Below, piece after piece: positions 21,610 through 35,809 of a stretch of DNA of 64,000 nt. Origin of the DNA: a bacterium (GTDB lineage: Bacteria > Armatimonadota > Zipacnadia > Zipacnadales > UBA11051); NCBI GenBank assembly GCA_030604405.1, contig JAUVVY010000002.1, forward strand, positions 124,001-188,000. The letters run 5' to 3'. The notes under the pieces are model-generated. The model was not told where the DNA came from. It worked only from the letters and a program-made list of their open reading frames with translations, and made no database searches. Each line of letters starts with the position of its first letter. Positions within the stretch are counted from its first letter, which is position 1. Both the position numbers and the translations under genes were made by a program.

Positions 21610-22407
21610 CTAAGGTACGGCCCGCCGGCCTTCGAAGCCTAGCGTCTCGCGCAGGTAGCTGAGGTTGTGTCGCGAGCTTTCCCGGGGATCAAGTGAGGTA
21701 TAGTCCAGGTCCACGACAATCCATCCGTCGAAGCCCGCCTGCTTCAGCATTTCCGCCAGAGGTGGGAAGTCAACTATCCCGCGGCCCAGTTCGATAAAGC
21801 GCCGGTTCTCGTCGAGGTCCTTGAAGTGCACGTAGTGCATGCGCTCAATGTACTTCTCGAATGTGGCTGGAATATCGAAATCCCCGAGCGCCAACTGTGC
21901 GGTGTCCGGGGTGCATTTGACAATTTGTGGGTCCGTAGCCGCCATCAGTGCGTCGAATTCTGCGGTATATTCGAAGATGGAGCCCCAGTGCTGGTGCCAG
22001 GTGCAGATCAGGCCGGCATCTAGGATCCTCTTCCCTACCTCATTGGCCAGGCGCGCGATTCTATGAATAGTCTGACCGTTTCGCGGTAAGTGGGTGCTGC
22101 CGCCGTCCAACATAATGTATTCTGTCCCAATCGCCGTCGCAAATTCAATCGTCCGCCCTATGGTCTCCTGCCATGCCGCGATACTTTCATCATCCAGGAA
22201 GCTGCAAGGGCAGTAAAGGCCCGAAATCTCCAGGTCGAGCCCTTGCAGGTAGCGGCGGTACTCTTCGGGCTGCGCGTAAGCCTCGTCCAACCTCCCGGGC
22301 GACCACTCGAAGCCGTCCCAGCCGGTAGATGAAATGTCTTTCAGGGCTTCCTCCGCTTCGATGTCCTGTCGTACGTAGGTCGCTGGATGATATCCAAGTC
22401 TGACCAT
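21610..22407 (-). CDS. Sugar phosphate isomerase/epimerase-like TIM barrel (IolE-like)
   Basis: 265 residues, ATG at 22407 just 1 base after the stop of the upstream gene, with AGGAAATGG inside that gene's end. AP-endonuclease-2/xylose-isomerase-like fold: GWDGFEWSPG, YIMLDGGSTH, CTWHQHWGSIFE, KCTPDTAQLALG, YVHFKDLDE and FDGWIVVDLDY. The His/Asp/Glu ligands typical for a divalent metal are in place. Known relatives isomerise or dehydrate inositols and sugars. It is tightly coupled with the UPF0173-like hydrolase. Confidence 0.85.
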   Translation of the reverse strand: MVRLGYHPATYVRQDIEAEEALKDISSTGWDGFEWSPGRLDEAYAQPEEYRRYLQGLDLEISGLYCPCSFLDDESIAAWQETIGRTIEFATAIGTEYIMLDGGSTHLPRNGQTIHRIARLANEVGKRILDAGLICTWHQHWGSIFEYTAEFDALMAATDPQIVKCTPDTAQLALGDFDIPATFEKYIERMHYVHFKDLDENRRFIELGRGIVDFPPLAEMLKQAGFDGWIVVDLDYTSLDPRESSRHNLSYLRETLGFEGRRAVP

Positions 22408-22408
22408 G

Positions 22409-23095
22409 TTATATTTCCATTTCCTGGCCGGGTTTGAGTACTACACATTCAATGCCCATTTCGTCCAGACGCCTTGCGAACTCTTCGGGGTCTTGTTCGA
22501 TAACCTCAAAGGCGCTGTAGTGCATTGGCACGACTACATCGGCATCCAGCATACCGGCGGCGATCAGCGCGTCATCGGGCCCCATTGTGAAGTTGTCGCC
22601 TATCGGCAGAATCGCAGCGGCCAGGTCGTTGATTTCGCCGATGAGTTCCATGTCGGAGAAAAGGCCGGTGTCGGCGGCGTAATAGACCGTCGCCTCGTCC
22701 ATCGTCACCAGGAACCCGCAGGGCGGGCCGGTGTACTCGATCAGATCGTCGGTGACGACCGCCGAGCCGTGGAAGGCCTGGGTGAGCTTCACGTACCCGA
22801 AATCAAACATGGCTCCGCCACCGATGTGCATGGGAGCGGTCTGACATCCGAAGCGCTCGCAGTACATCGCCAGCTCATAGGGGCCGATGATCGGCACCTC
22901 GAGGCGTTGGGCGATAGCGATGGCGTCGCCGAGGTGGTCGGAGTGGCCGTGGCTGGCCAGGATTGCATCAACTGCCACTTCGTCGGGCGTCACAACGGCT
23001 TCGGGGTTTTCCGCCAGCCAGGGGTCGAAGATTATGCTGTGCTCCTGATCTGACAGGGTAAAACAGGCGTGTCCCAGTGCTTTGAGCGTCGGCAT
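22409..23095 (-). CDS. UPF0173-like metal-dependent hydrolase (metallo-beta-lactamase fold)
   Basis: 228 residues from the ATG at 23095 (AGGA upstream; a GTG 3 codons earlier is possible). The HxHxDH signature is ASHGHSDHLGD, with further ligands in QAFHGS, YAADTG and VPMHYSAFE. IIFDPWLAENP near the N-terminus is typical of UPF0173/UlaG-like proteins. The family contains lactonases and phosphodiesterases; a lactonase partner for the adjacent sugar isomerase-like enzyme is plausible but inferred. Confidence 0.88.
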   Translation of the reverse strand: MPTLKALGHACFTLSDQEHSIIFDPWLAENPEAVVTPDEVAVDAILASHGHSDHLGDAIAIAQRLEVPIIGPYELAMYCERFGCQTAPMHIGGGAMFDFGYVKLTQAFHGSAVVTDDLIEYTGPPCGFLVTMDEATVYYAADTGLFSDMELIGEINDLAAAILPIGDNFTMGPDDALIAAGMLDADVVVPMHYSAFEVIEQDPEEFARRLDEMGIECVVLKPGQEMEI

Positions 23096-23120
23096 GTGTT
23101 TCACATCCTTTTTCGATGGT

Positions 23121-23160: not shown

Positions 23161-24282
23161 CTATTCGCTCTCTGGATTGAACAGACTGCCATATTCAGCG
23201 CGCAGGGCGCTCTGTTTGCTGAGGTAGTCTTCCCAGCCGTCCTCGGCTTGCAGCAGATTCAATTCGTCGAGGGAGGCCCAGCCTTCTGGCGGGCTTACGT
23301 CCGGCCGGGTCGAATAGGAGCCGAGCAGGCTTGAGAGCGCTGCCTGCCCCTCGTGCGAGAGCATGTATTCTACAAACAGCTTGCTGGCGTTGGGGTGTGG
23401 GCTGGTGCGCAATATCGCCACCGGCCCGAGGCACACCGGCACCCCGTCCTCCGGCCACACGACTTGAATCGGCTCGTGCTTGAGCCGGGCGTGCTGGTAC
23501 ACCTTGTAGCCAAGCACTCCGCCGGCGATCTGTGCATCGCCGCGTACCAGCGCCTGAAGTATGCCATCACCAGACTTGTGGACGGTGGGGCTGTGCGCCG
23601 CCAATTGCTCCCAGTACGAAACCCCGTATTTTTCCCTCAGGAAGTAATATTGCGCATACGCCGATCCGCCGCTCTGGGCATCCTTCATGGCTATCTTATT
23701 GGCCCATTTTTTGTCCAGCAGGTCGCGCCAGGTTTTCGGGGCCTGCTCCTCGGGCACGGTATCGGTGCTGTAAGCCAGGCACACTGTCACCAGTCGCGCG
23801 CCGGTCCAGTAGCCCGGCGCTTTGTACTCGGGTGCGATCGCTTTACTCTCGGCCGGCTCGTAGCGGTATAGTTGGCCGCGTTTGCGCAGCGAGATGAAGA
23901 TCCCCGGGTCCAGTACGTGGATGACGTCGGCACGGGTGTGGCCGGACTTGAGTTCTTCCTCCACCCGGCTGACGATGTCGAAGGTGCTCTGGCGGGTGAT
24001 GCGGACTTTCAAGAAGTCATATTTCTCCTCAAACATCCGGGCGAACTGCGCCGCCTGCGTTTGCGGCACCGACGTGTACCAGTTCAGCTCAGCTTCGCTG
24101 CGCGCCGCCTGCATTATCTCCTCAGGCGTCTTGGGGCGCGGGCCCTCCGGGCCGTTTTCATTGGTGATGGTGATTACTATCTCCTCATTATCGCCGCCGG
24201 GCGGACACCCTGAAAGCAGCACCATTGACAGCGCTAAAACGCACACAATAATTGCTAGACTTTGATGTGAGTTGGTATCCAT
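23161..24282 (-). CDS. Extracellular solute-binding lipoprotein (ABC type 1, Fe/thiamine/polyamine-like)
   Basis: 373 residues from the ATG at 24282; an in-frame TTG at 24297 is the alternative. Lipobox VLLSGC gives a lipid-anchored protein. The mature part has ELNWYTSVPQTQAAQFARMFE, ADVIHVLDPG, WRDLLDKKWANKIAMKDA and GDAQIAGGVLGYKVYQ, the layout of periplasmic Fe(III)/spermidine-type binding proteins. No ABC permease or ATPase is adjacent. Instead it begins 21 bases after the EamA-HAMP-cyclase fusion gene and is probably co-transcribed with it, so it may deliver a ligand to that sensor rather than to a transporter (inference). Confidence 0.85.
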   Translation of the reverse strand: MDTNSHQSLAIIVCVLALSMVLLSGCPPGGDNEEIVITITNENGPEGPRPKTPEEIMQAARSEAELNWYTSVPQTQAAQFARMFEEKYDFLKVRITRQSTFDIVSRVEEELKSGHTRADVIHVLDPGIFISLRKRGQLYRYEPAESKAIAPEYKAPGYWTGARLVTVCLAYSTDTVPEEQAPKTWRDLLDKKWANKIAMKDAQSGGSAYAQYYFLREKYGVSYWEQLAAHSPTVHKSGDGILQALVRGDAQIAGGVLGYKVYQHARLKHEPIQVVWPEDGVPVCLGPVAILRTSPHPNASKLFVEYMLSHEGQAALSSLLGSYSTRPDVSPPEGWASLDELNLLQAEDGWEDYLSKQSALRAEYGSLFNPESE

Positions 24283-24303
24283 CGCAATCGCATTCAAGAG
24301 TAA

Positions 24304-26592
24304 CTATTCATCGGTAGATTCTGCGATCTGCCGCATCGCGTCATCCTCGCGCAGGCCAGTTACCTCATAGAAATCCCCGGCGCCGATAGGTTTCGCTTCA
24401 ATATGCGCCTCAACCTCCATGTAAGCGCGATTAGTGACATAGAGAGCACAAGCATGCCCGGTCTCAGCTACCTGGTCGCTCAACTCGGCAAGTATGCGGT
24501 CGGCAGAATCTTGTGGCAAGTAATCAATCACAAGGCGTGCGAAGATCGGCGTGGCCTGTTCACTTTGCCAACAGCCGTGCGCCACAATCTCTAACCCCGC
24601 CAGGACCGCTCGCAGCAGATCATCCTGCTCCGCGACGGTGCTGCCCCAGCCGACGATAATGCGCCCCTGCTCATAGTCGTGGATTTCGCCCTCATGTTGG
24701 AAAACGGCCCCGACAAAACCATTAAGCAGCTTGTCCACGCCCTCGCGAGCTTCCACAGGCACCTCAGCAGCGAGGCGCACGTCCAATATCAAGATTACCG
24801 GTGGCAGCGGCAGCTCTGCGCGGGTCCTCGCCGCGGTTTCATCAGTGGTGGCGCGGAAGATGCCGCGCCGCAGCATCGCAGCCATCTGCAGATCTCCGAC
24901 AATCCTGGCCATCGAGTCGCTTAGGCTATGAACTTCATCCTCACCGTGCATCAGCAGCGGGACGCTCAGGTCGCCGTCCGCAATGCGCCCGGCGGCTGCA
25001 CTCAGGCGCTCCAGCGGCCGCGTCAAGTGCCCTACCAGATACGTCGTCACCAAGATCCCGACGATGACTAGCAGCAGCGCCAGAGTAAAATAGCGCACAG
25101 TGATCTCCGTTGCTGTTCGCCGGGCGATACTCTTGCGACATCCCATTTTCAAGAGTTGCGGATAACCTTCCAGCTCGGCGGTCAGCGGGATGATGTCCTG
25201 GCCGGATTTGAAATCGCTGTCTGTTATCAGTTCCAGTAATTCGAAACCCAGCATGTCGTAGTCAGGGCTCTCGCGTTTACCCTCGGCGGTCAGCGTTCGG
25301 ATGGCCGGATCGGCTGCGTAGGCGATCATCCCGCCGTTCCCATCAAGCAGTGCTACATAGAGGATGTCCACCGAGTAAGCCCGACTTTGAATTTTATGAT
25401 GCACCAGCTTGCGCAGTAACTGCTGGTAGTTGTCACGCTCTGGAGGCCCGCCCAGCGTCTGGTACTGTAATATCATGTACGCCGTCTCCCCCATCGCCAG
25501 GCGCACCTGTTCGTTGATGACGCTTCTGGTGTGGCGTATTGCCAGATAGGTCCCGGACATGACTGTCACGATGATCGCCGCTGAGACCAGTAGCGCTATC
25601 TTGTTCTTCAGACTCGCAGCCCACGGCCTGGCGGCCCGTGCTGGCGGCTCCCTGACCGCTCCTTCGACCACATCCACGGCCTGCTGCCTGGCCGTACGCA
25701 TGACGATCAAATAAGCCCCGAACACCAGCACCGCGATCCCGGAGATGTGGTATGCGTTGAGCGCCTCCTTGAGCACGATCCAGGATACTACCGCGGTCAC
25801 AATCGCGCCCACCAGCTTGAGCGTTACTGCAACATGGACCGGGACTTCGGCCAGGCCTCGGTAGTAGAGGAACATTGACAGACTCGTGCTCACCCCGGCC
25901 AACACTAGCAGCAGAGCCCAGCCATTAGCGTCGAGTTGCATCAGGCCCACGTACTGCCCACCACCGAGTGAGATCAGGCCCGTAATGAAAAAGCCGACGC
26001 CAAAGCGCCACATCGCAACAGTAGAAGGCGTGAACTTGCGGAGTGCGCCCTTGCCCAGTATCTCCGCCGCAGCCCGCAGTACCCCTGCAGCCAGCGCCAG
26101 CGCGTCGCCTAGTAAATGCTGCCTGGCGGTCGCCATTCCAAAGGAAAGCTCACCAACGCCGATTAGCACCGCGGCGGCGACCATCATTAGTACCAGGGAA
26201 AAACGCGCCCAGGTGATCCGCTCACGCAGCGTAAAGTAGGCAAAGAAGGCAACAAAGATCGGAGCGGTCTTTGATATGGCGTTGGCGATGCCGGCGTGCG
26301 AGTAATCAATTGCCGCGGTGAACAGCAGCGCCGCGAAGCCTGAGCCCAGTGCACCGACCAGAAACAGGGCCGCCCAGTCGCGCCGTGTCGGTTTGCCGGC
26401 CTTGGGGTCCCTTATCTTGTGGTCAACGCCAAAGGGCAACAGGAAGCCCACTGCGAGCAGATAGCGAGCCGCCACTACCGTTGCATGCGACAGTTCAGAA
26501 AGCAGCAGCTTGGTGAACACCGGCGAGAGCCCCTGCAGCAGTACGCCCGCCACCAGGAAATAGTAGGGCGTAAAATGGCTCCGCCTGCTCAC
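24304..26592 (-). CDS. EamA transporter - sensor - HAMP - degenerate cyclase fusion protein
   Basis: 762 residues, GTG at 26592 with a G-rich ribosome site. Residues 10-150 and 160-298 are the two five-helix EamA halves of a DMT-type exporter/permease. A linker leads to a helix (332-352), an extracytoplasmic domain (353-499, dCache-like in size), a second helix (500-521), a HAMP domain (about 519-572, ending DGDLSVP ... EVHSLSDSM) and a C-terminal domain (596-745) resembling class III nucleotide cyclase: VILILDVR keeps the first metal Asp, but the usual GD of the second metal site is replaced (HDYEQGRIIVGWG). Activity is therefore doubtful; it may be a regulatory pseudo-cyclase. The frame is continuous with no sign of a misread junction. 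Confidence 0.82.
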   Translation of the reverse strand: MSRRSHFTPYYFLVAGVLLQGLSPVFTKLLLSELSHATVVAARYLLAVGFLLPFGVDHKIRDPKAGKPTRRDWAALFLVGALGSGFAALLFTAAIDYSHAGIANAISKTAPIFVAFFAYFTLRERITWARFSLVLMMVAAAVLIGVGELSFGMATARQHLLGDALALAAGVLRAAAEILGKGALRKFTPSTVAMWRFGVGFFITGLISLGGGQYVGLMQLDANGWALLLVLAGVSTSLSMFLYYRGLAEVPVHVAVTLKLVGAIVTAVVSWIVLKEALNAYHISGIAVLVFGAYLIVMRTARQQAVDVVEGAVREPPARAARPWAASLKNKIALLVSAAIIVTVMSGTYLAIRHTRSVINEQVRLAMGETAYMILQYQTLGGPPERDNYQQLLRKLVHHKIQSRAYSVDILYVALLDGNGGMIAYAADPAIRTLTAEGKRESPDYDMLGFELLELITDSDFKSGQDIIPLTAELEGYPQLLKMGCRKSIARRTATEITVRYFTLALLLVIVGILVTTYLVGHLTRPLERLSAAAGRIADGDLSVPLLMHGEDEVHSLSDSMARIVGDLQMAAMLRRGIFRATTDETAARTRAELPLPPVILILDVRLAAEVPVEAREGVDKLLNGFVGAVFQHEGEIHDYEQGRIIVGWGSTVAEQDDLLRAVLAGLEIVAHGCWQSEQATPIFARLVIDYLPQDSADRILAELSDQVAETGHACALYVTNRAYMEVEAHIEAKPIGAGDFYEVTGLREDDAMRQIAESTDE

Positions 26593-26613: not shown

Positions 26614-27405
26614 CTACTGATACGGAGATATGAACTCCAGATGCTGCTTGTCCAGCCAGCCGCGGCCGCCTGCCTCGGTGCGAATCTCGCGGTATTGGCC
26701 CTGAGTTTCCAGGACGCTCACCTCGGCTCCCGGCCTTAGCCTTGCCAGTAACTCAAAGCTCCGTCCCGGCCCGCTCATCATGTCCGCGTCGGACACCACA
26801 ATCGCACGGCCACTGGCGTAGTCGCCGTCCCATTTGGCGTAGGTCAGTCCACTGCTGATACATAGGGCAATCACCAGCGCCCACAGCGCCACTGTCGCTC
26901 TTCGCCTGGGGTTGTACATGCGCCAAATCCCGGCAGCGACCGCAAGCCAATACAGCAGCGCGCTCGAGCCGACCAGTTCGTTAATGCTCAGTCTTGACAA
27001 CAGCCATCTGAGCAGCAAATGCCCCCACGTCTCCACTATGGGCGACGCCTGGTAGGGCAATTGGCTCTCGGCGTAGCGCAGGTTGTGCAAGGTGTCACGA
27101 TGTCGTGGGGCAATCAGCAGCGCCCGGCGGTAGTAAAGCACCGCCCGGCCCGCGTCCTTCATCTGTAAGTAAGCGTTGCCCAGATTGTAGCAGACCGCCA
27201 GCGCATGATAGCCTTGCTCAAGCAGACTTTCATAAGCCGCCGCAGCAGCTTGATAGTTCCCGTCGGCATAGTGCTGATTGGCCTGGGCAAACCTGTGTGC
27301 CACGCCCTCGGAGTGTTGCTCGCGCTGGATTTCCTGCCCCCACGCAGCGCTCAGCACCACCAGCACGCCGCAAAGCATCGCAGCACTCGCCAGGCGGCTG
27401 CTCAT
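26614..27405 (-). CDS. batE: BatE-like TPR/SH3 membrane protein
   Basis: 263 residues, ATG at 27405. Signal peptide, TPR pair (RFAQANQHYADGNYQAAAAAYE and LGNAYLQMKDAGRAVLYYRRA, given as patterns), two transmembrane helices (SSALLYWLAVAAGIW and VALWALVIALCISSG) and a C-terminal bacterial SH3 domain (SGPGRSFELLARLRPGAEV). This is the standard BatE layout, the last gene of Bacteroides aerotolerance-type clusters. It starts immediately before the BatD stop on the same strand, which suggests translational coupling. Confidence 0.85.
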   Translation of the reverse strand: MSSRLASAAMLCGVLVVLSAAWGQEIQREQHSEGVAHRFAQANQHYADGNYQAAAAAYESLLEQGYHALAVCYNLGNAYLQMKDAGRAVLYYRRALLIAPRHRDTLHNLRYAESQLPYQASPIVETWGHLLLRWLLSRLSINELVGSSALLYWLAVAAGIWRMYNPRRRATVALWALVIALCISSGLTYAKWDGDYASGRAIVVSDADMMSGPGRSFELLARLRPGAEVSVLETQGQYREIRTEAGGRGWLDKQHLEFISPYQ

Positions 27406-27406
27406 A

Positions 27407-29263
27407 TCAACGACCCCCCAGGCTTTTGGCGCTCAGCTCGTCTATCAGCCTTCTGGCCGCCTGCAGCATTTCATCATACTCGGCCCGCCCGGCTCCGGCG
27501 AACCGGCCGTAGTCGCACCGCCGCAGCAACGCGTCGACACGGCCAACCAGATCTTCATCAATGCTTTCCTCACGTAGCGCGGCAATTGCCTCTTGGGTGG
27601 ATATGTCGGCTGCCTGCAGGCCTGTGCGGTGGGCGATGAAGTCGGTGAGGGCGTGCGACACCGCCGTGCAAAAGCGGTCGGAATCGTCGCATGTCAGGGC
27701 CTGGCGAGCCTCGTACAGGTGCGCCCGGGCGACCCGCGGCGCGTTCAGCGACCTCGCCAGTTCAGGATTGGCCAGCAATGCCCGGTTGCGGTGGGAGAGG
27801 TAGGCAAAGGTCGCCAGGGCCAGCAACGGCAGCCCCTGCAGAGCCCAAAACCACGGCTGCACCAGCAGCGGCCCGCCGGCTGGCTTACCGGGGCCGCGTG
27901 CCATTATGTGCCGCATCTGTTCGGTCTCTTCGCTCGGGCCATCTTCCATGGCAGCTCCCGGCGCGACCTGGATCGAAACACCCTCGGTCTTAGTGGTCTT
28001 GTATCGGCCCGCGTCGGGGTTGAAATAGACGAACTCGATGGGTGGCACCTTGACTGTGCCCGGCCGCTTGGCCAGTGCCAGAAATTCAAAACGTGCCTCG
28101 CCGCCGATGGTATCCGACTCCCCGCCGTAACCAGGGGCCGACGTGCGGTCTTCACGCGACCTGTAGATCCTTACCCATTCAGGTACCTGCGGAGTAGGCG
28201 TGCCAAGGCCATGGAGATTGCCGGCACCGCGGACGATGAGGGTGAGCGTAAAGGTCTCCCCCGCCTTGACCGATGTGCGGTCGGCGGTCAGTTTGGCAGT
28301 GAACTTGCCGACGGCGCCCTCGAATTGCTTGCCTGCCGGCGCTGGCGGCAGTTGCCGGACGTATAGTTCCAGCGTATTAGTGTAATAGTCCTGCGGTGGC
28401 GTCATCGGATGCATTGTGGCTATGACCTCGACCGGCTCGATCGTCGCCCGGCCGGCCGTTGTCGGAAACACAGCCCACCGCCGCTGCTGAACCAGGTATT
28501 CGCTGTCGCCCAGAAGCCGGGTTACGTTCTCCGGGTGCGAAAGTTCCTTCGTCACAAAGTTCTCGGCCTGCGGCGGCTCATAGCGAGTATCGCCATAGAG
28601 ACTCTGAGACTGATAGAAAGTGAAGGTGAGGATGACCTGCTGGCCGACGTAGGGGTTCTCAGGCTCCGCGGTCAGGCGCAAGTCAATGGTCTTTGTGGGG
28701 ATGTATTCGTCCTCCGTTGGGGATGGCGGCGGCGGTTCAGGTATCGGAGTCGCCGGCGGCATGGACGGTGGTTGAGTCGTAGTTGACTCCGAGGTGACAT
28801 TCACCTGCACGCTGCCGGTTTCATACGTTTGCCGGCCGACTCTGACCGAGGCCGGCTCCAGAGTGAAGCTGCCCGCCCGTTTTGCGCGGAGCACATAGAT
28901 ATGTGTCCGCGTGGACTCCATTCCGCCGTCGTCCATCGTCGTGCTCTGTCGCGTGCCTGTAGTGACAATCTCGAATCCGTCCAGGTCCGGTAGCGTTGGC
29001 TGCGGCCGCATGGTAAGTCCGGCCGGCCCGGTTATCGTTACCGAGATTTCATACCTCAGCGTCTCGCCGGCAGCCACGGTCTGCGGCTGTGCGGACGCGG
29101 CTACCTCCACATCCGCCGCAACCTCCCTCACAGTCGCCAGCGCACACGCTATCCCGAGAGCAACAAACAATGGGCAGGCGAGGACGCCTGCCCTACTAGA
29201 ACGTCGCGTGGCTCGGGCTTCCAGCCCGAGTCCGCCACTTATCGCAAAAAGCTCTCTGGGCAA
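27407..29263 (-). CDS. batD: BatD-like membrane protein
   Basis: 618 residues from a TTG at 29263 (AAGGA 10 bases upstream). BatD family: extracytoplasmic Ig-like repeats (VAAGETLRYEISVTITG, TVKVPPIEFVYFNPD) and one C-terminal helix (PWFWALQGLPLLALATFAYL) before a cytoplasmic helical tail. The first 26 or so residues (GGLGLEARATRR) are encoded by a dispersed palindromic repeat, placed before the natural-looking signal peptide (VLACPLFVALGIACALA). Either the repeat extends the N-terminus or the true start is an internal codon. It works with BatA/B/C in a membrane complex of uncertain function. Confidence 0.85.
   Translation of the reverse strand: MPRELFAISGGLGLEARATRRSSRAGVLACPLFVALGIACALATVREVAADVEVAASAQPQTVAAGETLRYEISVTITGPAGLTMRPQPTLPDLDGFEIVTTGTRQSTTMDDGGMESTRTHIYVLRAKRAGSFTLEPASVRVGRQTYETGSVQVNVTSESTTTQPPSMPPATPIPEPPPPSPTEDEYIPTKTIDLRLTAEPENPYVGQQVILTFTFYQSQSLYGDTRYEPPQAENFVTKELSHPENVTRLLGDSEYLVQQRRWAVFPTTAGRATIEPVEVIATMHPMTPPQDYYTNTLELYVRQLPPAPAGKQFEGAVGKFTAKLTADRTSVKAGETFTLTLIVRGAGNLHGLGTPTPQVPEWVRIYRSREDRTSAPGYGGESDTIGGEARFEFLALAKRPGTVKVPPIEFVYFNPDAGRYKTTKTEGVSIQVAPGAAMEDGPSEETEQMRHIMARGPGKPAGGPLLVQPWFWALQGLPLLALATFAYLSHRNRALLANPELARSLNAPRVARAHLYEARQALTCDDSDRFCTAVSHALTDFIAHRTGLQAADISTQEAIAALREESIDEDLVGRVDALLRRCDYGRFAGAGRAEYDEMLQAARRLIDELSAKSLGGR
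29172..29236. repeat. Palindromic repeat inside the 5' end of batD
   Basis: GGGCAGGCG agga CGCCTGCCC (29172-29193) is followed by the family unit CGCGTGGCTCGGGCTTCCAGCCCGAG and tccgcc (29205-29236). The second part is almost the same as 44519-44550. Here it is in frame with batD and encodes GGLGLEARATRR. Confidence 0.8.
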
Positions 29264-29265
29264 AT

Positions 29266-29955
29266 CTACCAGTCCTTGCCGCGCGGCGGCCTCGTGATCG
29301 GCTCTTTCGGTTTCCGCATCTCTTTCTGGAGTTCCTTGTCCTCCTCGGCAAGCGCCCTCAGCAGCCGTTCAGCCTCTTTCTTGGAAAGCTGGCCATCCTG
29401 CTTGGGTGCTGGCTGTCGCTCCAACTGCTGATCCTGTTGTTCTTGTTCAGCTTGCTGCTGTTTGTCCTCTTGGTCCTTGTCCTGTTGCTCCTGCTGCTGT
29501 TCGTCCTGTTTATCTTCTTGCTGCTCCTGCTGCTGTTGGCGCTGCGCCAGTTCCAGGTTCCATTTCGCGTTCACATCATCATGCTTCAGATAAAGTGCAC
29601 GCTTGTAATGCTCGATGGCTTTATCTTTATCATCCTTGCGCAGGTATCCGTTGCCGGTGTTGTACTCGCACTTCTCCTGGAGTTCGGACCCCGCCTCTTT
29701 CGCCAGTGCCTGGAATGCTTTAATGGCGCGGTCGTAGTCCTGAGCCATGTGCAGCGCCGCGCCACGGTTGAACACAGGCTCGCGGCGTTCCGCGTACCTT
29801 TCGGTCGCCTGGGCGTAAGCGTCCGCAGCCTCCCCGTACTTGTTCTCTTTGAACAGCTTATCCGCCTTTATCCACGGGTTGATGCTGCCGCATCCGCTGA
29901 GGACCAGCAGCAAAACCGTCGTCACGCTCCAGGCGATAGCCCTACAGTTGCGCAA
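29266..29955 (-). CDS. batC: BatC-like TPR lipoprotein with Gln/Asp-rich region
   Basis: About 229 residues from a TTG at 29955 with GGAGG about 10 bases upstream; a TTG at 30009 would add residues before the signal peptide. Lipobox VLSGC. Three TPR-like units (ADKLFKENKYGEAADAYAQA, YNTGNGYLRKDDKDKAIEHY) are followed by a long charged, Gln-rich coiled segment (about 125-185) and a Lys/Glu C-terminus. This is the usual BatC arrangement. Its start overlaps the end of batB by 14 bases. Confidence 0.82.
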   Translation of the reverse strand: MRNCRAIAWSVTTVLLLVLSGCGSINPWIKADKLFKENKYGEAADAYAQATERYAERREPVFNRGAALHMAQDYDRAIKAFQALAKEAGSELQEKCEYNTGNGYLRKDDKDKAIEHYKRALYLKHDDVNAKWNLELAQRQQQQEQQEDKQDEQQQEQQDKDQEDKQQQAEQEQQDQQLERQPAPKQDGQLSKKEAERLLRALAEEDKELQKEMRKPKEPITRPPRGKDW

Positions 29956-30985
29956 CTTCCCTGCGCCTCCCTGCACCGACTCTTTGCTCGACGATGAGTG
30001 CCTCGACAACGAAAAGCAGTATCGCCAGAGCCAGCGGCCACTGGAATCGCTGCCCGTAATCGGTATATACGTAAGTGCCTACCTGCACGCCTTCGAGGCT
30101 TTCCAAGCGGGCAGAAATCTGCGCGACGGCACCCGCCTCCGACAGCCGCTTATACAGGCCGTTACCGGCCTTGGCCAGCTTCTTCAGCTCTGCCTCATTC
30201 AGCTTCGTGATTATGACTTCACCGTTCTTGTCCCGTTTGAGGTCCCTGACGGTGCCGTCCTGACCTATCGCCGGTATCGGGTCGCCTTCCGGAGTTCCCA
30301 CTCCCAGTACCATGATCGCCGCGCCGGTCTCTCTGTTGACAGCGTTGGCAGCCTCCAACGCCCCGGAGCCGTGGTCCTCGCCATCGCTTAGCAGTACCAG
30401 CGCCCGGTGCTTGCCTTCCGCCTTTTCGAGAATCCCGCCGGAGATCATAATGGCCTTGGCGAGCGCCGTTCCCGGCTGCGGCGTCGAGTCCAGCCCTATC
30501 GAGTCCAGGAACATCAACGCGGCATCGTGGTCTATCGTCAGCGGGCAGTATTTGTAGGCATCGCCGGCAAAAACCACCAGAGCGATGCGGTCGTTGGTCA
30601 GCCGGCTGATCATGGTAGTGGCCGCGTCCTTGGCCGCCTGCAGGCGATCAGGCTTGACATCGCCGGCCGCCATGCTGAGGCTGGTATCTATGGCGATGAC
30701 GATTTCAGCCCCCTGTCGCCGCGCCTTCTGCTTCTTCATCCCTACCATCGGCTGAGCCAGAGCGATTATTGCGAACACCAGCACGCCGGCGAAGAGCATG
30801 AACTTGAAATTGCGCCGCCGCAGCACGGAAAGCAAGCCGGTGCGCTCTGCTGTGAAATCCGGGCAGAAGGCCTCGAGTGCCTGCCGCCGCCGGCCCATCG
30901 CCCACAGATGCACCAGCGCCAGTGCCGGCAGCAGCCACAGGTAGCTCAGCGCTTGCGGATTACCCCATCGGAAGAAATCCACCAT
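29942..30985 (-). CDS. batB: BatB-like von Willebrand factor A membrane protein
   Basis: 347 residues, ATG at 30985. Two N-terminal helices (LSYLWLLPALALVHLWAMG and FKFMLFAGVLVFAIIALAQP), a vWA domain with intact MIDAS (VIAIDTSLSMAAGD, then the later Thr and Asp in DSTPQPGTA and VLLSDGEDHG), and a C-terminal helix (WPLALAILLFVVEALIV). The vWA domain should bind a metal and protein partner. It follows batA by 6 bases. Confidence 0.9.
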   Translation of the reverse strand: MVDFFRWGNPQALSYLWLLPALALVHLWAMGRRRQALEAFCPDFTAERTGLLSVLRRRNFKFMLFAGVLVFAIIALAQPMVGMKKQKARRQGAEIVIAIDTSLSMAAGDVKPDRLQAAKDAATTMISRLTNDRIALVVFAGDAYKYCPLTIDHDAALMFLDSIGLDSTPQPGTALAKAIMISGGILEKAEGKHRALVLLSDGEDHGSGALEAANAVNRETGAAIMVLGVGTPEGDPIPAIGQDGTVRDLKRDKNGEVIITKLNEAELKKLAKAGNGLYKRLSEAGAVAQISARLESLEGVQVGTYVYTDYGQRFQWPLALAILLFVVEALIVEQRVGAGRRREVAQL

Positions 30986-30991
30986 CTGTTC

Positions 30992-31969
30992 CTACGGCGC
31001 CTTTCGTAGCCAGGTACAGCCGAGAATAAATTGCAGTGCCACGATCACAAAAGCCGGCCACACGAAGCGGCCATAAAGCTGCTTGTATTCGATCTGTTTG
31101 CCGCCCAGGTATTCCGATTTCTCCATCTGGTCAATCTGGGCGTATATTTCGCGCAAGGTGTCGGCGTCGGTGGCGCGGAAGTACTGTCCCGCCTCTCCGG
31201 CCACTTTTTCCAGCGTCTCCTCGTCCAACTCGGTACCAGCGGGTAGGCCGGTGCCGAAATCGAGCTTCGGCTGGGACGGATCGCGCTCCTTTCCCACACC
31301 GATGGCGTATATCTTCAGTCCCAGAGCCGCTGCTGCTCGTGCGGCGGTCGCCGGATCAATCTCTCCCGCGTTGTTAGCGCCATCGGTCAGCAGGATGATC
31401 ACTTTGCTCTTGGCCTCGGAGTTGCGCAGGCGACTCGCTGCCGTGGCGATGGCCATCCCGATGGCCGTGCCGTCCTGCAGCATCCCTATCTCCACTTCGT
31501 CGAGCAGCGCCCTGACCATCTTGTGATCTGCGGTCAGTGGCGCCTGCGTGAAGGCTTGCCTGGCGAACACCACCAGGCCGAGGCGGTTCTGACCGGCTCC
31601 GTCAATGAAATCGCTGAGCACTTCGCGCGCGACATCAAAGCGGCTTTGAGGCCCCAGGTCTCTGATCTCCATGCTTCCCGAGATGTCCAGCGTAAGGATG
31701 ATGTCTATGCCGGCGCCGGCCGTGCGCTTGATGCCCACAGGCACCTCCGGCCGCGCCAGGCCGACGACCAGTAGTGCCAGTGCAATTATCCGCAACGGGG
31801 GCAATAGTTTGCTCAAGCTTGCCCGAGGCGTGCCGCTTGCTCCCTGCAACAGCCGCAGGTCGGAATATATCACTCGTCCGCTGCCCGACTTGCCCACACG
31901 CACCTGTCGCACCGCCAGATAGGCGACACCTGCTAAACCGATTAGGGCCCAGGGAAACGCGAAGATCAC
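30992..31969 (-). CDS. batA: BatA-like von Willebrand factor A membrane protein
   Basis: 325 residues; GTG start that overlaps the TGA of the upstream gene (GTGA). N-terminal helices, then vWA with MIDAS ILTLDISGSMEIRD, KVIILLTDGANNAGEI, and a C-terminal helix WPAFVIVALQFILGCTWL. With BatB it forms the vWA pair characteristic of MoxR-associated clusters. Confidence 0.9.
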   Translation of the reverse strand: MIFAFPWALIGLAGVAYLAVRQVRVGKSGSGRVIYSDLRLLQGASGTPRASLSKLLPPLRIIALALLVVGLARPEVPVGIKRTAGAGIDIILTLDISGSMEIRDLGPQSRFDVAREVLSDFIDGAGQNRLGLVVFARQAFTQAPLTADHKMVRALLDEVEIGMLQDGTAIGMAIATAASRLRNSEAKSKVIILLTDGANNAGEIDPATAARAAAALGLKIYAIGVGKERDPSQPKLDFGTGLPAGTELDEETLEKVAGEAGQYFRATDADTLREIYAQIDQMEKSEYLGGKQIEYKQLYGRFVWPAFVIVALQFILGCTWLRKAP

Positions 31970-32955
31970 GCTGCCGCCCCCTCTCGGTCGCCGGCCTCAA
32001 CTTCAAGTTGCTCCTCAGGTTCCACAATGGCGCCGCGTTGCAGGAGTTCGAACGCCTCCTCTATGTCGGAGTAGGCGATACTGTCTTGTGGAATCCATTT
32101 GGCGAACTTGACCAGGTCGCCGCGGCTTAGCAGGGCGATGAACTCCTGCTGCCAGTCGTCCGGCAGTTCGCTACTGCGCAGGTCGTAACGGATTATCGGC
32201 GTAGTAGCTTCCATAGCTGGGATGTCGGCTCTGTGTTGCAGCCAGCGCCGCAGTATGTCGCCAAGCTCGGAGTAAAATGCCTTGAACTTGCCCGCTGCGA
32301 TCAACTTGCCGTCACGCAGTGTCTCCAGCGCAGAGTAAGCCTTTTCCTGAGGCGTCAGTTCCCGCTCCGGCTCTCCTGGCGTCCTTCTGGCCTGCCTTTG
32401 CCACAGCCACACCCCGACTACCAGCGCGGCTAGTATCGCCAGCGCAATCACAGTCGGCCAGATCCACGGATACCACCACGGCACCAGAAACATCGGCCCG
32501 TAGATGGGCTTAGGCTTCTGCTCGCCGCCTTGAGCCGGCAACACGCTCTCTATTGTCACCGTTACCGGAGGCGCCAGGTAGTTGTCAATATGCTCCTTGC
32601 CATCTATTGTACGCTTCGCTTCCACCTCGAAATCGGCTATTTGCCTCTCCCCCACAGTGAAGCCGACCAGTTGGTAGCGCAGCGTTATCTGTTGTCTGCC
32701 GTCAGGAAGTTCGGTAGTCTCCTCTTCGTAGTCGCGGATTTCGAAGTCGCCCAAATCCAACTCATTGCCGGGTAGCTGAGCTTGGCTTTCGCCGGGCAGA
32801 ATGAGCTTAACGGTGTACCAGAACGGGTCTCCGACAGTCAGCGCTGGTGCCTCCACCGAGGCGTCTATGCTTCCTGCCGTATCGGCAGATGCGCCCGGCG
32901 GGATGCACAGCGCGGCTACTAGCAGCACGCAGATTGTCACAAAGCGCCTGGTCAT
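31966..32955 (-). CDS. BatD-related/DUF4381-like membrane protein of the Bat cluster
   Basis: 329 residues, ATG at 32955 overlapping the DUF58 stop by 4 bases. Signal peptide, a beta-rich extracytoplasmic domain like the first half of BatD (VGDPFWYTVKLILPGE), a helix (PTVIALAILAALVVGVWLW) and a cytoplasmic helical domain (SALETLRDGKLIAAGKFKAFYSEL). Such proteins sit between DUF58 and the vWA genes in many Bat clusters. Role: part of the membrane complex, mechanism unknown. Confidence 0.78.
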   Translation of the reverse strand: MTRRFVTICVLLVAALCIPPGASADTAGSIDASVEAPALTVGDPFWYTVKLILPGESQAQLPGNELDLGDFEIRDYEEETTELPDGRQQITLRYQLVGFTVGERQIADFEVEAKRTIDGKEHIDNYLAPPVTVTIESVLPAQGGEQKPKPIYGPMFLVPWWYPWIWPTVIALAILAALVVGVWLWQRQARRTPGEPERELTPQEKAYSALETLRDGKLIAAGKFKAFYSELGDILRRWLQHRADIPAMEATTPIIRYDLRSSELPDDWQQEFIALLSRGDLVKFAKWIPQDSIAYSDIEEAFELLQRGAIVEPEEQLEVEAGDREGAAA

Positions 32956-33833
32956 CTTCTTTTCCGTGAGCGCCTGTCGAAGAATTCCATGAGGGGTTTA
33001 ATCGGCGAGGTGCCGGCACAAATCGAGATGTAGTCAGCGCCGGCGGCGTTCATTTCCGTCCGACGCTGCTCTGCGGCGGCCGTCTGTGTAGCCGCGAACT
33101 GGCGGCAGTAGCGGGCGCTGCCCAGGTCCACCAGACTGCGCCGCCCTGTCTCTGCGTCTTCCACCTCGATCAGGCCACTCACCGGCAGCATCCGCTCTCT
33201 GGCGTCATAGACTTCGATGGCCACTACATCGTGCCTGCGAGCGACAGTGCCCATCGGCGCGAGGTAGTCACTGTCCTGGAAGTCAGATATCACAAAGATG
33301 ATCGCCCTGCGGTTGAGGATCCGGGCTGTAAAGTCCAGCGCCTGACCGATATTGGTCTCGGCGGCCCGAGGCTGGAAATACAATATGTCCCGGATCAGCC
33401 GCAGGACCTGGCGACGGCCCTTCTTCGGCGGCAGATACAATTCGGTCTCATTGGTGAAGATCACTGCGCCGACTTTGTCGTTATTGCGGACCGCGGAGAA
33501 AGCCAGCGTAGCGGCCGTCTCCGCCATCGTCTCCGCCTTAGTCTGCACACCGGTGCCGAAATCAACGCTGGCTGAGGCGTCCACCACCACCATCACCGTC
33601 AGCTCGCGCTCCTCAACGTATTTCCTTACGTGCAAGCCGCCGGCCCGCGCCGACACGCGCCAGTCAATATTGCGAATATCGTCACCGTGATAGTACTCCC
33701 GCACCTCCGCAAACTCCACGCCCTGTCCGCGGAACGCACTCTCATACTGCCCGGCGAACATGTCGTCAGCCAGGTGGTCGGTGTATATCTCGATTTGACG
33801 GATCTTTTTGAGCAGTTGTTCGGTTGTCAGCAA
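32952..33833 (-). CDS. DUF58 domain protein
   Basis: 293 residues; TTG at 33833 with GAGGT 8 bases upstream. Family hallmark FAEVREYYHGDDIRNIDWRV near residue 40-60, then a vWA-like domain (VMVVVDASASVDFGTG; KGRRQVLRLIRDILYF; IIFVISDFQDSDYL). It is a soluble partner of the MoxR ATPase in these clusters. Confidence 0.9.
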   Translation of the reverse strand: MLTTEQLLKKIRQIEIYTDHLADDMFAGQYESAFRGQGVEFAEVREYYHGDDIRNIDWRVSARAGGLHVRKYVEERELTVMVVVDASASVDFGTGVQTKAETMAETAATLAFSAVRNNDKVGAVIFTNETELYLPPKKGRRQVLRLIRDILYFQPRAAETNIGQALDFTARILNRRAIIFVISDFQDSDYLAPMGTVARRHDVVAIEVYDARERMLPVSGLIEVEDAETGRRSLVDLGSARYCRQFAATQTAAAEQRRTEMNAAGADYISICAGTSPIKPLMEFFDRRSRKRR

Positions 33834-33889
33834 TGTTTGGACCTCGACGCGTACGTGCTTTCAAGCCCTGGGCGCGTCAGAGCTTACCC

Positions 33890-34888
33890 TCACGGAATCT
33901 CTATACTGCGGAAAATCTTTTCGACAATATCGTCGCTGATTGTCTCCTGGGCCTCCGCCTCGTACGAAACGATAATCCGGTGGCGCAGCACGTCCATACC
34001 TATGGCCAACACATCATCAGGCGTCACATAGCCACGGTGCTGGGTGAAGGCGTGGGCTTTGGCGCCGATCGTGAGATAGATGCTCGCACGTGGCGAGGCA
34101 CCGTATTCGATCAGCGGCCCCAGCGCGCCAAGGCCGTATTGTTCCGGCTCGCGCGTGGCGAAGACCAGGTCCACAATGTAGCGCTGTACCTTCTCGTCCA
34201 CGTAGATCGCATTGACCAGCTTGCGCGCCTGCATAATTCGCTCCAGGCTGGACACTGGCTCGGCGACGATTTCCTCGCCGGTCGTCCAGCGCTGTAGAAT
34301 GTTGAGCTCTTCTTCCTTGCTGGGGTAGGTGATCTTGACCTTGAGCATGAAGCGGTCCATCTGGGCCTCGGGCAGCGGGTAGGTGCCTTCCTGCTCTATG
34401 GGGTTCTGAGTTGCCAGTACCAGGAAGGGCTTTGGCAGCGGGAAGGTCTGGTCTCCTATCGTCACCTGGCGTTCCTGCATTGCTTCCAGCAGTGCGCTCT
34501 GCACCTTGGCCGGCGCGCGATTGATCTCGTCGGCCAAAATGAAGTTGGCAAAAATGGGACCGCGCTTGGCGAAAAATTCATGCTCCTTTTCGTTGTATAT
34601 GATGGTGCCGGTGATGTCGCCCGGCAGCAAGTCCGGGGTAAACTGGATGCGCTGAAAGTCACCGCTTATAGCTTGCGTCAGCGTCCGTGCAGTCATCGTC
34701 TTTGCCAGCCCGGGCACGCCCTCCAAAAGCACGTGCCCGTCTGCCAGCAGCGCAACCAGTAAGTGCTCGATCAGTTCGTGCTGGCCGACAATCAGCTTGC
34801 CGATCTCCCGCTTGATGTCGTCCAGAAATAATGCTTCCTGCGCTATCTGCTCAGTGAGTTGTGCGATTTTTTGCTCCAAGGTTATCAC
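33890..34888 (-). CDS. moxR: MoxR-family AAA+ ATPase
   Basis: 332 residues, GTG at 34888. Walker A LLEGVPGLAKT, Walker B FILADEINRAP, sensor region LATQNPIEQEGTYPLPEAQMDRF. MoxR AAA proteins are chaperone-like ATPases that act on vWA-domain partners, here BatA and BatB downstream. It is the first gene of the Bat run, 15 bases after the EamA transporter gene, so the unit may begin further upstream. Confidence 0.93.
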   Translation of the reverse strand: MITLEQKIAQLTEQIAQEALFLDDIKREIGKLIVGQHELIEHLLVALLADGHVLLEGVPGLAKTMTARTLTQAISGDFQRIQFTPDLLPGDITGTIIYNEKEHEFFAKRGPIFANFILADEINRAPAKVQSALLEAMQERQVTIGDQTFPLPKPFLVLATQNPIEQEGTYPLPEAQMDRFMLKVKITYPSKEEELNILQRWTTGEEIVAEPVSSLERIMQARKLVNAIYVDEKVQRYIVDLVFATREPEQYGLGALGPLIEYGASPRASIYLTIGAKAHAFTQHRGYVTPDDVLAIGMDVLRHRIIVSYEAEAQETISDDIVEKIFRSIEIP

Positions 34889-34903: not shown

Positions 34904-35809
34904 TCAGGCCGCTATGGCGTCCTCACTCAGCGGCTTGGTTGCCATGTACACGCCGAGCACGACAAGCAGCCCGCCTATTACAAATGTCGGCCCCATCGGC
35001 TCCTGTAACAGTACCCAGCCCAGCACAACGCTGACAAGCGGAGCGATGTACTGGGATGGGCCCAGCACCGAGCTTTCCACGTGTTCCAGGGCTTTGTACC
35101 AAAGACACATCGCGATGGTCGTAGGCGCTACGGCCATATAGGTTATAGCCAGCAACTCGAGGCCTGTCAAGGGGCGCACAGCGCCGCGCGCCACAGCCAC
35201 CACAGCCAACATCGCGCCCCCGCAGGCAATAGTCCAGGCTGCAGTCACCAGCCCACCCAACTTGCGCACAACAGCCTTGCCGAAGGCGGTGTAGGCGGCC
35301 CAGCACAGCGCCGCACCCAGCGCCGCCACTCCCCCCAACAGATTGTTGCTCGGTGGCAGCGGCTGCGGAGGTGCCGAGCCCAGCATCACGATACTGCAGC
35401 CCGCCAGCCCCACAAACAGACCCGCGAACCGCAGCCACGGAACGCGCTCCCCGATCATAACCGCAAATACCGCGATGAATATGGCGTTGGAGTTTATGAT
35501 CAGGGAGCTATTGATGGAGGTCGTGTACTGCACCGACACGAATACCAGCGCGCCGAGCCCAAAGGTGCCTGCCGCCGACAAAGCCAGTATCTGCCACGTG
35601 AACTCGCCCGCTGCCAGCACCTTCTTCGCACCGGCAGTAGCCAGCACATATCCCAGAGCGAATATGCCACCGAGGCCAAAACGCATCGCGGCGGTGTAAT
35701 AGGGGTCGAGGCCGCGCACCTCGATCAAATAGCGCGCGATCACATAAATCGTACCCCACAGGGCACTGGCTCCAAGCCCGTAAGCAAGGCCTTTGAAATG
35801 CGATGACAT
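34904..35809 (-). CDS. EamA/DMT-family transporter
   Basis: 301 residues from the ATG at 35809 (a TTG four codons earlier is possible). Ten hydrophobic helices in two EamA halves, with ALWGTIYVIARYLIE at the start and EHVESSVLGPSQYIAPLVSV in the second half, a typical EamA signature. It is an inner-membrane exporter or permease of small metabolites; substrate unknown. A separate EamA module is fused to the sensor at 24304. Confidence 0.88.
   Translation of the reverse strand: MSSHFKGLAYGLGASALWGTIYVIARYLIEVRGLDPYYTAAMRFGLGGIFALGYVLATAGAKKVLAAGEFTWQILALSAAGTFGLGALVFVSVQYTTSINSSLIINSNAIFIAVFAVMIGERVPWLRFAGLFVGLAGCSIVMLGSAPPQPLPPSNNLLGGVAALGAALCWAAYTAFGKAVVRKLGGLVTAAWTIACGGAMLAVVAVARGAVRPLTGLELLAITYMAVAPTTIAMCLWYKALEHVESSVLGPSQYIAPLVSVVLGWVLLQEPMGPTFVIGGLLVVLGVYMATKPLSEDAIAA

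Follow-up and report, generated by a model that had tools for sequence, protein, structure and literature searches.

The locus lies in a window of 64,000 nucleotides (positions 124,001 to 188,000 of contig JAUVVY010000002.1), the whole stretch of DNA that was analysed, from a bacterium of the class Zipacnadia in the phylum Armatimonadota (genome G000). It contains a minus-strand gene of 762 codons that starts with GTG at 26592, stops at 24304, and has no internal stops. The encoded protein carries, in order, two EamA repeats, a sensor in which an extracytoplasmic domain is held between two transmembrane helices, a HAMP domain, and a class III cyclase fold. A preliminary description had placed transporter, sensor, HAMP, and pseudo-cyclase in a single protein, and the intact reading frame, Pfam, and AlphaFold2 with Foldseek agree with this. 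The features are as follows.

26614..34888, minus strand: MoxR/DUF58/Bat-type operon, upstream, 21-bp gap to the fusion gene (linkage conserved in three sampled families)
24304..26592, minus strand: EamA-sensor-HAMP-pseudocyclase fusion gene, 762 aa (intact ORF; 30 of the 46 genomes of the class have EamA fused to the sensor)
25693..26592, minus strand: EamA/DMT permease half, residues 1-300, two EamA repeats, the most conserved module (Pfam, fold match, identity, dN/dS)
25618..25692, minus strand: cytoplasmic linker, residues 301-325, poorly conserved (mean pairwise identity 0.23; pLDDT < 50 at 309-325)
25537..25593, minus strand: sensor transmembrane helix 1, residues 334-352 (hydropathy, model)
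25090..25536, minus strand: extracytoplasmic alpha/beta sensor domain, residues 353-501, lineage-specific (profile A3: 31 of 291 phylum genomes, one each)
25033..25089, minus strand: sensor transmembrane helix 2, residues 502-520 (hydropathy)
24904..25038, minus strand: HAMP domain, residues 519-563 (Pfam, E 1.2e-9)
24307..24804, minus strand: class III pseudo-cyclase domain, residues 597-762 (model with Foldseek; profile A4; hhalign)
24664..24675, minus strand: YEQG at residues 640-643, where intact relatives have KYMGD; second metal site lost (alignment)
23161..24297, minus strand: orphan lipoprotein solute-binding protein (SBP) of the SBP_bac_6/8 type, next gene downstream (Pfam; lipobox LSGC read from the sequence)

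The order of Bat-type operon and fusion gene is kept in three families and not in others, where the SBP gene stays. A second, unfused EamA gene (approximately 34937-35611; G000:C63:158937-159611) is located beyond the operon, which thus has EamA genes on both flanks, and a relative of the same genus (G001) shows a similar match on the same contig. Downstream (21610-23104) are genes for a hydrolase of the metal-dependent PRK00685 family and for a TIM-barrel protein resembling IolE, a gene order common to two same-genus relatives. Eight regions have a conserved gene after the SBP gene (L049 7481-8485, L045, L048, L050, L065-L067, and L069), with no Pfam match in the two scanned examples (L049 and L050).

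The fusion is not an artifact. The EamA-sensor junction runs in one frame through 29 relatives from separate assemblies, and among three same-genus relatives that have the same junction, one is 94% identical across the full length. A stop or frameshift near codon 300-330, which the preliminary description had named as a possible refutation, was found in no fused relative. Because the same junction is conserved in 30 species-level genomes assembled separately, an assembly joint or a frameshift joining two genes is ruled out with near certainty.

Its class (Armatimonadota, "Ca. Zipacnadia"/WS1) is represented by 46 genomes, of which 31 match the fusion protein, 30 with EamA and sensor and one with the sensor only; none of the 15 genomes compared from other classes matches it. 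A sensor-only profile recovered the same 31 among 291 genomes of the phylum, once per genome (one split over two contigs), with none in the 245 phylum genomes outside the class. Hits from a GTDB scan with two peptide patterns fell in Armatimonadota, Zipacnadia or WS1, bar one unclassified MAG, and named records with the fusion are from Armatimonadota, mostly "Ca. Zipacnadia"/WS1. This single two-pattern scan provides weak evidence that the fusion is absent outside Armatimonadota. Marine sediments are among the hypoxic and anoxic environments from which Zipacnadia are known (PMC10290634). In the sensor-only genome (G024; L081 2770-4119, G024:C34) the EamA half has been lost, and sensor, HAMP, eroded C-terminus, and SBP lie side by side.

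The whole protein was modelled with AlphaFold2 from an alignment of 28 sequences that included four intact cyclases (mean pLDDT 80, pTM 0.48). The individual modules of the model are credible, but their mutual packing is not, because the pTM of 0.48 does not allow domain packing to be read. Pfam assigned two stretches to EamA (PF00892; E 1.1e-35, 123 bits versus a cut-off of 28), and Foldseek matched the EamA half of the model to the DMT permeases YddG (5i20) and the choline importer LicB (7paf), with target TM-scores of 0.79 and 0.86, respectively. LicB was the sole meaningful match in a PDB profile search (E 0.004). The ten helices of the preliminary description are predicted by the model and the YddG/LicB fold, whereas plain hydropathy gives only eight clear peaks in this half, plus two for the sensor. 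LicB and YddG share the fold, but they are stand-alone permeases, and at only 15-17% identity to the fused EamA half their substrates cannot be transferred to it. Mean pairwise identity of the EamA half is approximately 0.59 among eroded members, dN/dS against the nearest relative is 0.07, and the charged residues K28, R43, K108, E124, R173, E177, K181, R196, H253, and H282 are strongly conserved.

The two-helix sensor with an extracytoplasmic domain and HAMP was likewise recovered, by hydropathy, the model, and a Pfam HAMP match (PF00672) after the transmembrane helix at 38.8 bits, above the cut-off of 25. A fold search with the extracytoplasmic domain gave no significant match. The Cache signals are weak, as sCache_3_2 matched two of 28 members (best E 5e-4) and not the window protein; the domain is possibly Cache-like. 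Its dN/dS against the nearest relative is 0.11.

Pfam gave no cyclase match in the window protein itself. Foldseek matched the C-terminus of the model to the class III cyclases Cya2, CyaB, and Rv1625c. Since the structural alignment contained the four intact cyclases, a separate profile (A4) was built from the 24 eroded C-termini alone, and in a search of the PDB it matched Cya2 (E 1.9e-7). The absence of a cyclase match, which the preliminary description had considered a possible refutation, was thus not what was found. The eroded C-termini also aligned with their intact relatives in hhalign (probability 98, E 1.6e-13). Class III catalysis uses two metal-binding aspartates, a base-selecting lysine, and a transition-state Asn/Arg pair; the window protein has only D604. 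In the alignment, KYMGD has become DYEQG, placing Gly643 at the second metal aspartate, as expected from the earlier reading of YEQG as a changed metal site, and Asp639 at the adenine-selecting lysine; the Asn/Arg pair is gone, and the first metal aspartate, Asp604, is retained. A heterodimer of the window module with another cyclase is unlikely because residues are missing from both of its half-sites.

Four relatives (L018, L021, L029, and L032) have the same fusion with the motifs FADI, KYMGD, and GD.VN.AQR, and all six catalytic positions checked (D, K, D, D, N, and R) are present in each. Because of these relatives, the C-terminus in the window is, judged by its residues, a true pseudo-cyclase, apparently catalytically dead and kept under weakened purifying selection. 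Compared with the nearest relative, its dN/dS of 0.25 indicates a weaker constraint, yet by that measure it is not a pseudogene. The four intact cyclases form one clade (branch support 97/99), and their genes span three families, two outside the order of the window genome. An intact cyclase ancestor with later loss would fit this spread in a tree rooted by midpoint only.

One idea is that the cyclase died since cAMP signalling had been lost from the cell. As this idea would expect, cNMP_binding matches number two to five in each of the four intact genomes and are lacking in most eroded ones (P 0.01, ignoring phylogeny), but elsewhere in the window genome there are 11 PF00211 cyclase matches, several with KFIGD-type sites, which keeps the idea tentative. 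Several of these sites look intact, and there is no cNMP_binding (PF00027) match in this genome at E 1e-5, so that cyclic nucleotides would be made here with no recognised receptor for them.

The SBP gene adjoins the fusion gene in 17 of the 20 relatives' regions examined, and in G005, G006, and G016 it is present, unlinked to the fusion. At E 1e-40 the SBP was found in 30 of the 31 sensor genomes; in the remaining one, G034, a contig end truncates it. None of the 30 compared genomes that lack the sensor has it, and these include G004 of the same genus. This co-occurrence has P ~1e-16 when phylogeny is ignored, of which the counts are not independent. The scanned neighbours of the window SBP and of the relatives' SBPs included neither an ABC permease nor an ABC ATPase. 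The genome that lacks EamA and keeps sensor and SBP indicates that the SBP belongs with the sensor half. In a mirror-tree analysis the SBP distances correlated best with those of the sensor (0.815), a result that is not specific, as other modules correlate too. The best PDB match of the SBP is the ferric-binding protein HitA; iron is not assumed as the ligand because the Tyr-Tyr pair of HitA has no counterpart in the SBP alignment. Phosphonate-binding profiles were the top NCBIfam matches, far below cut-off.

Similar pairing is known from sensor kinases. Those activated by an SBP usually adjoin its gene (10 of 11 characterised pairs), although neighbouring SBP and sensor genes need not interact, as two neighbouring SBP-kinase sets showed no activation, being negative or giving no binding (PMC11113362). 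Those pairs resemble the present one in having an adjacent, co-inherited SBP and an extracytoplasmic sensor (PMC11113362); here, however, the receptor is a permease-cyclase fusion and the interaction is a proposed one. The SBP is a probable ligand-presenting partner of the sensor and would be the most likely source of the signal to the fusion protein. The presence of the SBP with every sensor genome suggests an undescribed combined transport-and-sensing system. The coupling of transport to cytoplasmic signalling proposed earlier is plausible but was incomplete, in that the enzyme appears dead in the window and the linked SBP had been missed.

We put at about an even chance the reading that the fusion is a conserved transporter-receptor, an SBP-fed "transceptor" that was ancestrally a cAMP maker and is non-enzymatic in the window. 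Its starting points are the computed architecture, homology, loss of catalytic residues, and co-inheritance with an orphan SBP, from which we infer that the SBP docks on the sensor, that HAMP relays the signal, that the intact clade makes cAMP, and that the window protein acts non-enzymatically. Outside the membrane, the SBP would capture a small solute that may be phosphorylated; the loaded SBP would dock on the sensor, and HAMP would pass the change to a cytoplasmic dimer. In the intact clade this change would alter cAMP synthesis. In the window lineage the dead module may serve as a dimer or regulatory element that most likely sets the activity of the attached EamA or recruits a partner. 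The G024 protein, which lacks EamA, counts against a purely EamA-gating role. A more far-reaching version can be offered only tentatively, and we consider it rather doubtful: a new class of SBP-fed secondary transporter/receptors, in which a lipoprotein SBP dedicated to the DMT permease supplies it with its signal or its substrate via a built-in sensor. One clade would have cAMP as its output, and in the others the pseudo-cyclase would regulate the permease to which it is fused.

Three other explanations compete with the transceptor reading. The system might be an SBP-dependent secondary transporter, TRAP-like in function on a DMT permease, in which the SBP delivers substrate, sensor, HAMP, and dead cyclase only dock and gate, and no cytoplasmic signal arises in the window lineage. 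The SBP without an ABC partner among the scanned neighbours is consistent with this, as is EamA being the most conserved module while HAMP and cyclase erode. We nevertheless think it unlikely, because G024 has sensor and SBP without EamA, the intact clade carries the residues of an enzymatic output, and EamA proteins are often exporters (YddG) with no need for an SBP. That same genome, where the sensor persists without EamA, weakens a quite improbable proposal, that EamA is itself a sensing module which, like the Amt domain of Ks-Amt5, binds but barely transports, with the extracytoplasmic domain as a second input; the strong conservation of its charged residues and the Ks-Amt5 precedent are in its favor.

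It could also be that the C-terminus is a decaying, functionless remnant and that only EamA, perhaps with the sensor, matters in the window lineage. C-terminal identity among eroded members is only approximately 0.25, dN/dS is 3-4 times that of EamA, and in one relative (L011) the C-terminus is shortened. Yet no premature stops occur within the matches of the eroded members; the C-terminal frame is open in all sampled, and W649, E655, D658, L660, and A662 are invariant or near-invariant among the 24. With the predicted fold still whole and dN/dS well below 1, this explanation appears quite improbable.

An order of transmembrane helix, sensor, transmembrane helix, HAMP, and cyclase is the ordinary layout of bacterial HAMP-linked class III receptor adenylate cyclases. 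The protein described here differs from these in its added N-terminal ten-helix EamA module, as predicted, and in the loss of the catalytic site in most members. No described protein of this layout had been known to the preliminary description, and in the body of literature searched no paper names EamA, HAMP, and adenylate cyclase together. CbrA, described as a rare transceptor (PMC13022988; PMC7096432), belongs to SLC5-STAC sensor kinases that also combine a secondary transporter with cytoplasmic signalling output in one polypeptide. However, CbrA consists of an SLC5 permease, STAC, and a histidine kinase, in contrast to EamA/DMT, extracytoplasmic sensor, HAMP, class III (pseudo)cyclase, and SBP here. 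Pfam and NCBIfam found none of the CbrA-type domains (SLC5, STAC, histidine kinase) in the fusion protein, which kinases match in the transmembrane-HAMP part only. In the ammonium sensor kinase Ks-Amt5 a transporter fold has likewise been recruited into a receptor (PMC5764959), with an Amt fold and a histidine kinase rather than EamA, and with no SBP described in the part of that source consulted. According to the portion consulted of a report on Toxoplasma, the apicomplexan P4-ATPase-guanylate cyclase also joins a membrane transporter to class III cyclase domains, but it is eukaryotic and a guanylate cyclase, and its transporter has a P-type ATPase fold unrelated to EamA (PMC6592433). The novelty lies in the combination, as the parts themselves are known; CbrA and Ks-Amt5 are earlier examples of a transporter fused to a sensor, and the apicomplexan protein, as far as that portion goes, of a transporter fused to a cyclase.

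Fusions of a transporter with a receptor are rare, and the way in which a permease can steer a signalling enzyme is an open question. The intact and eroded fusions, the variant without EamA, and the strictly co-inherited SBP provide a ready comparative set for the roles of the modules. The same set lets the transition from a cyclase to a regulatory pseudoenzyme be studied.
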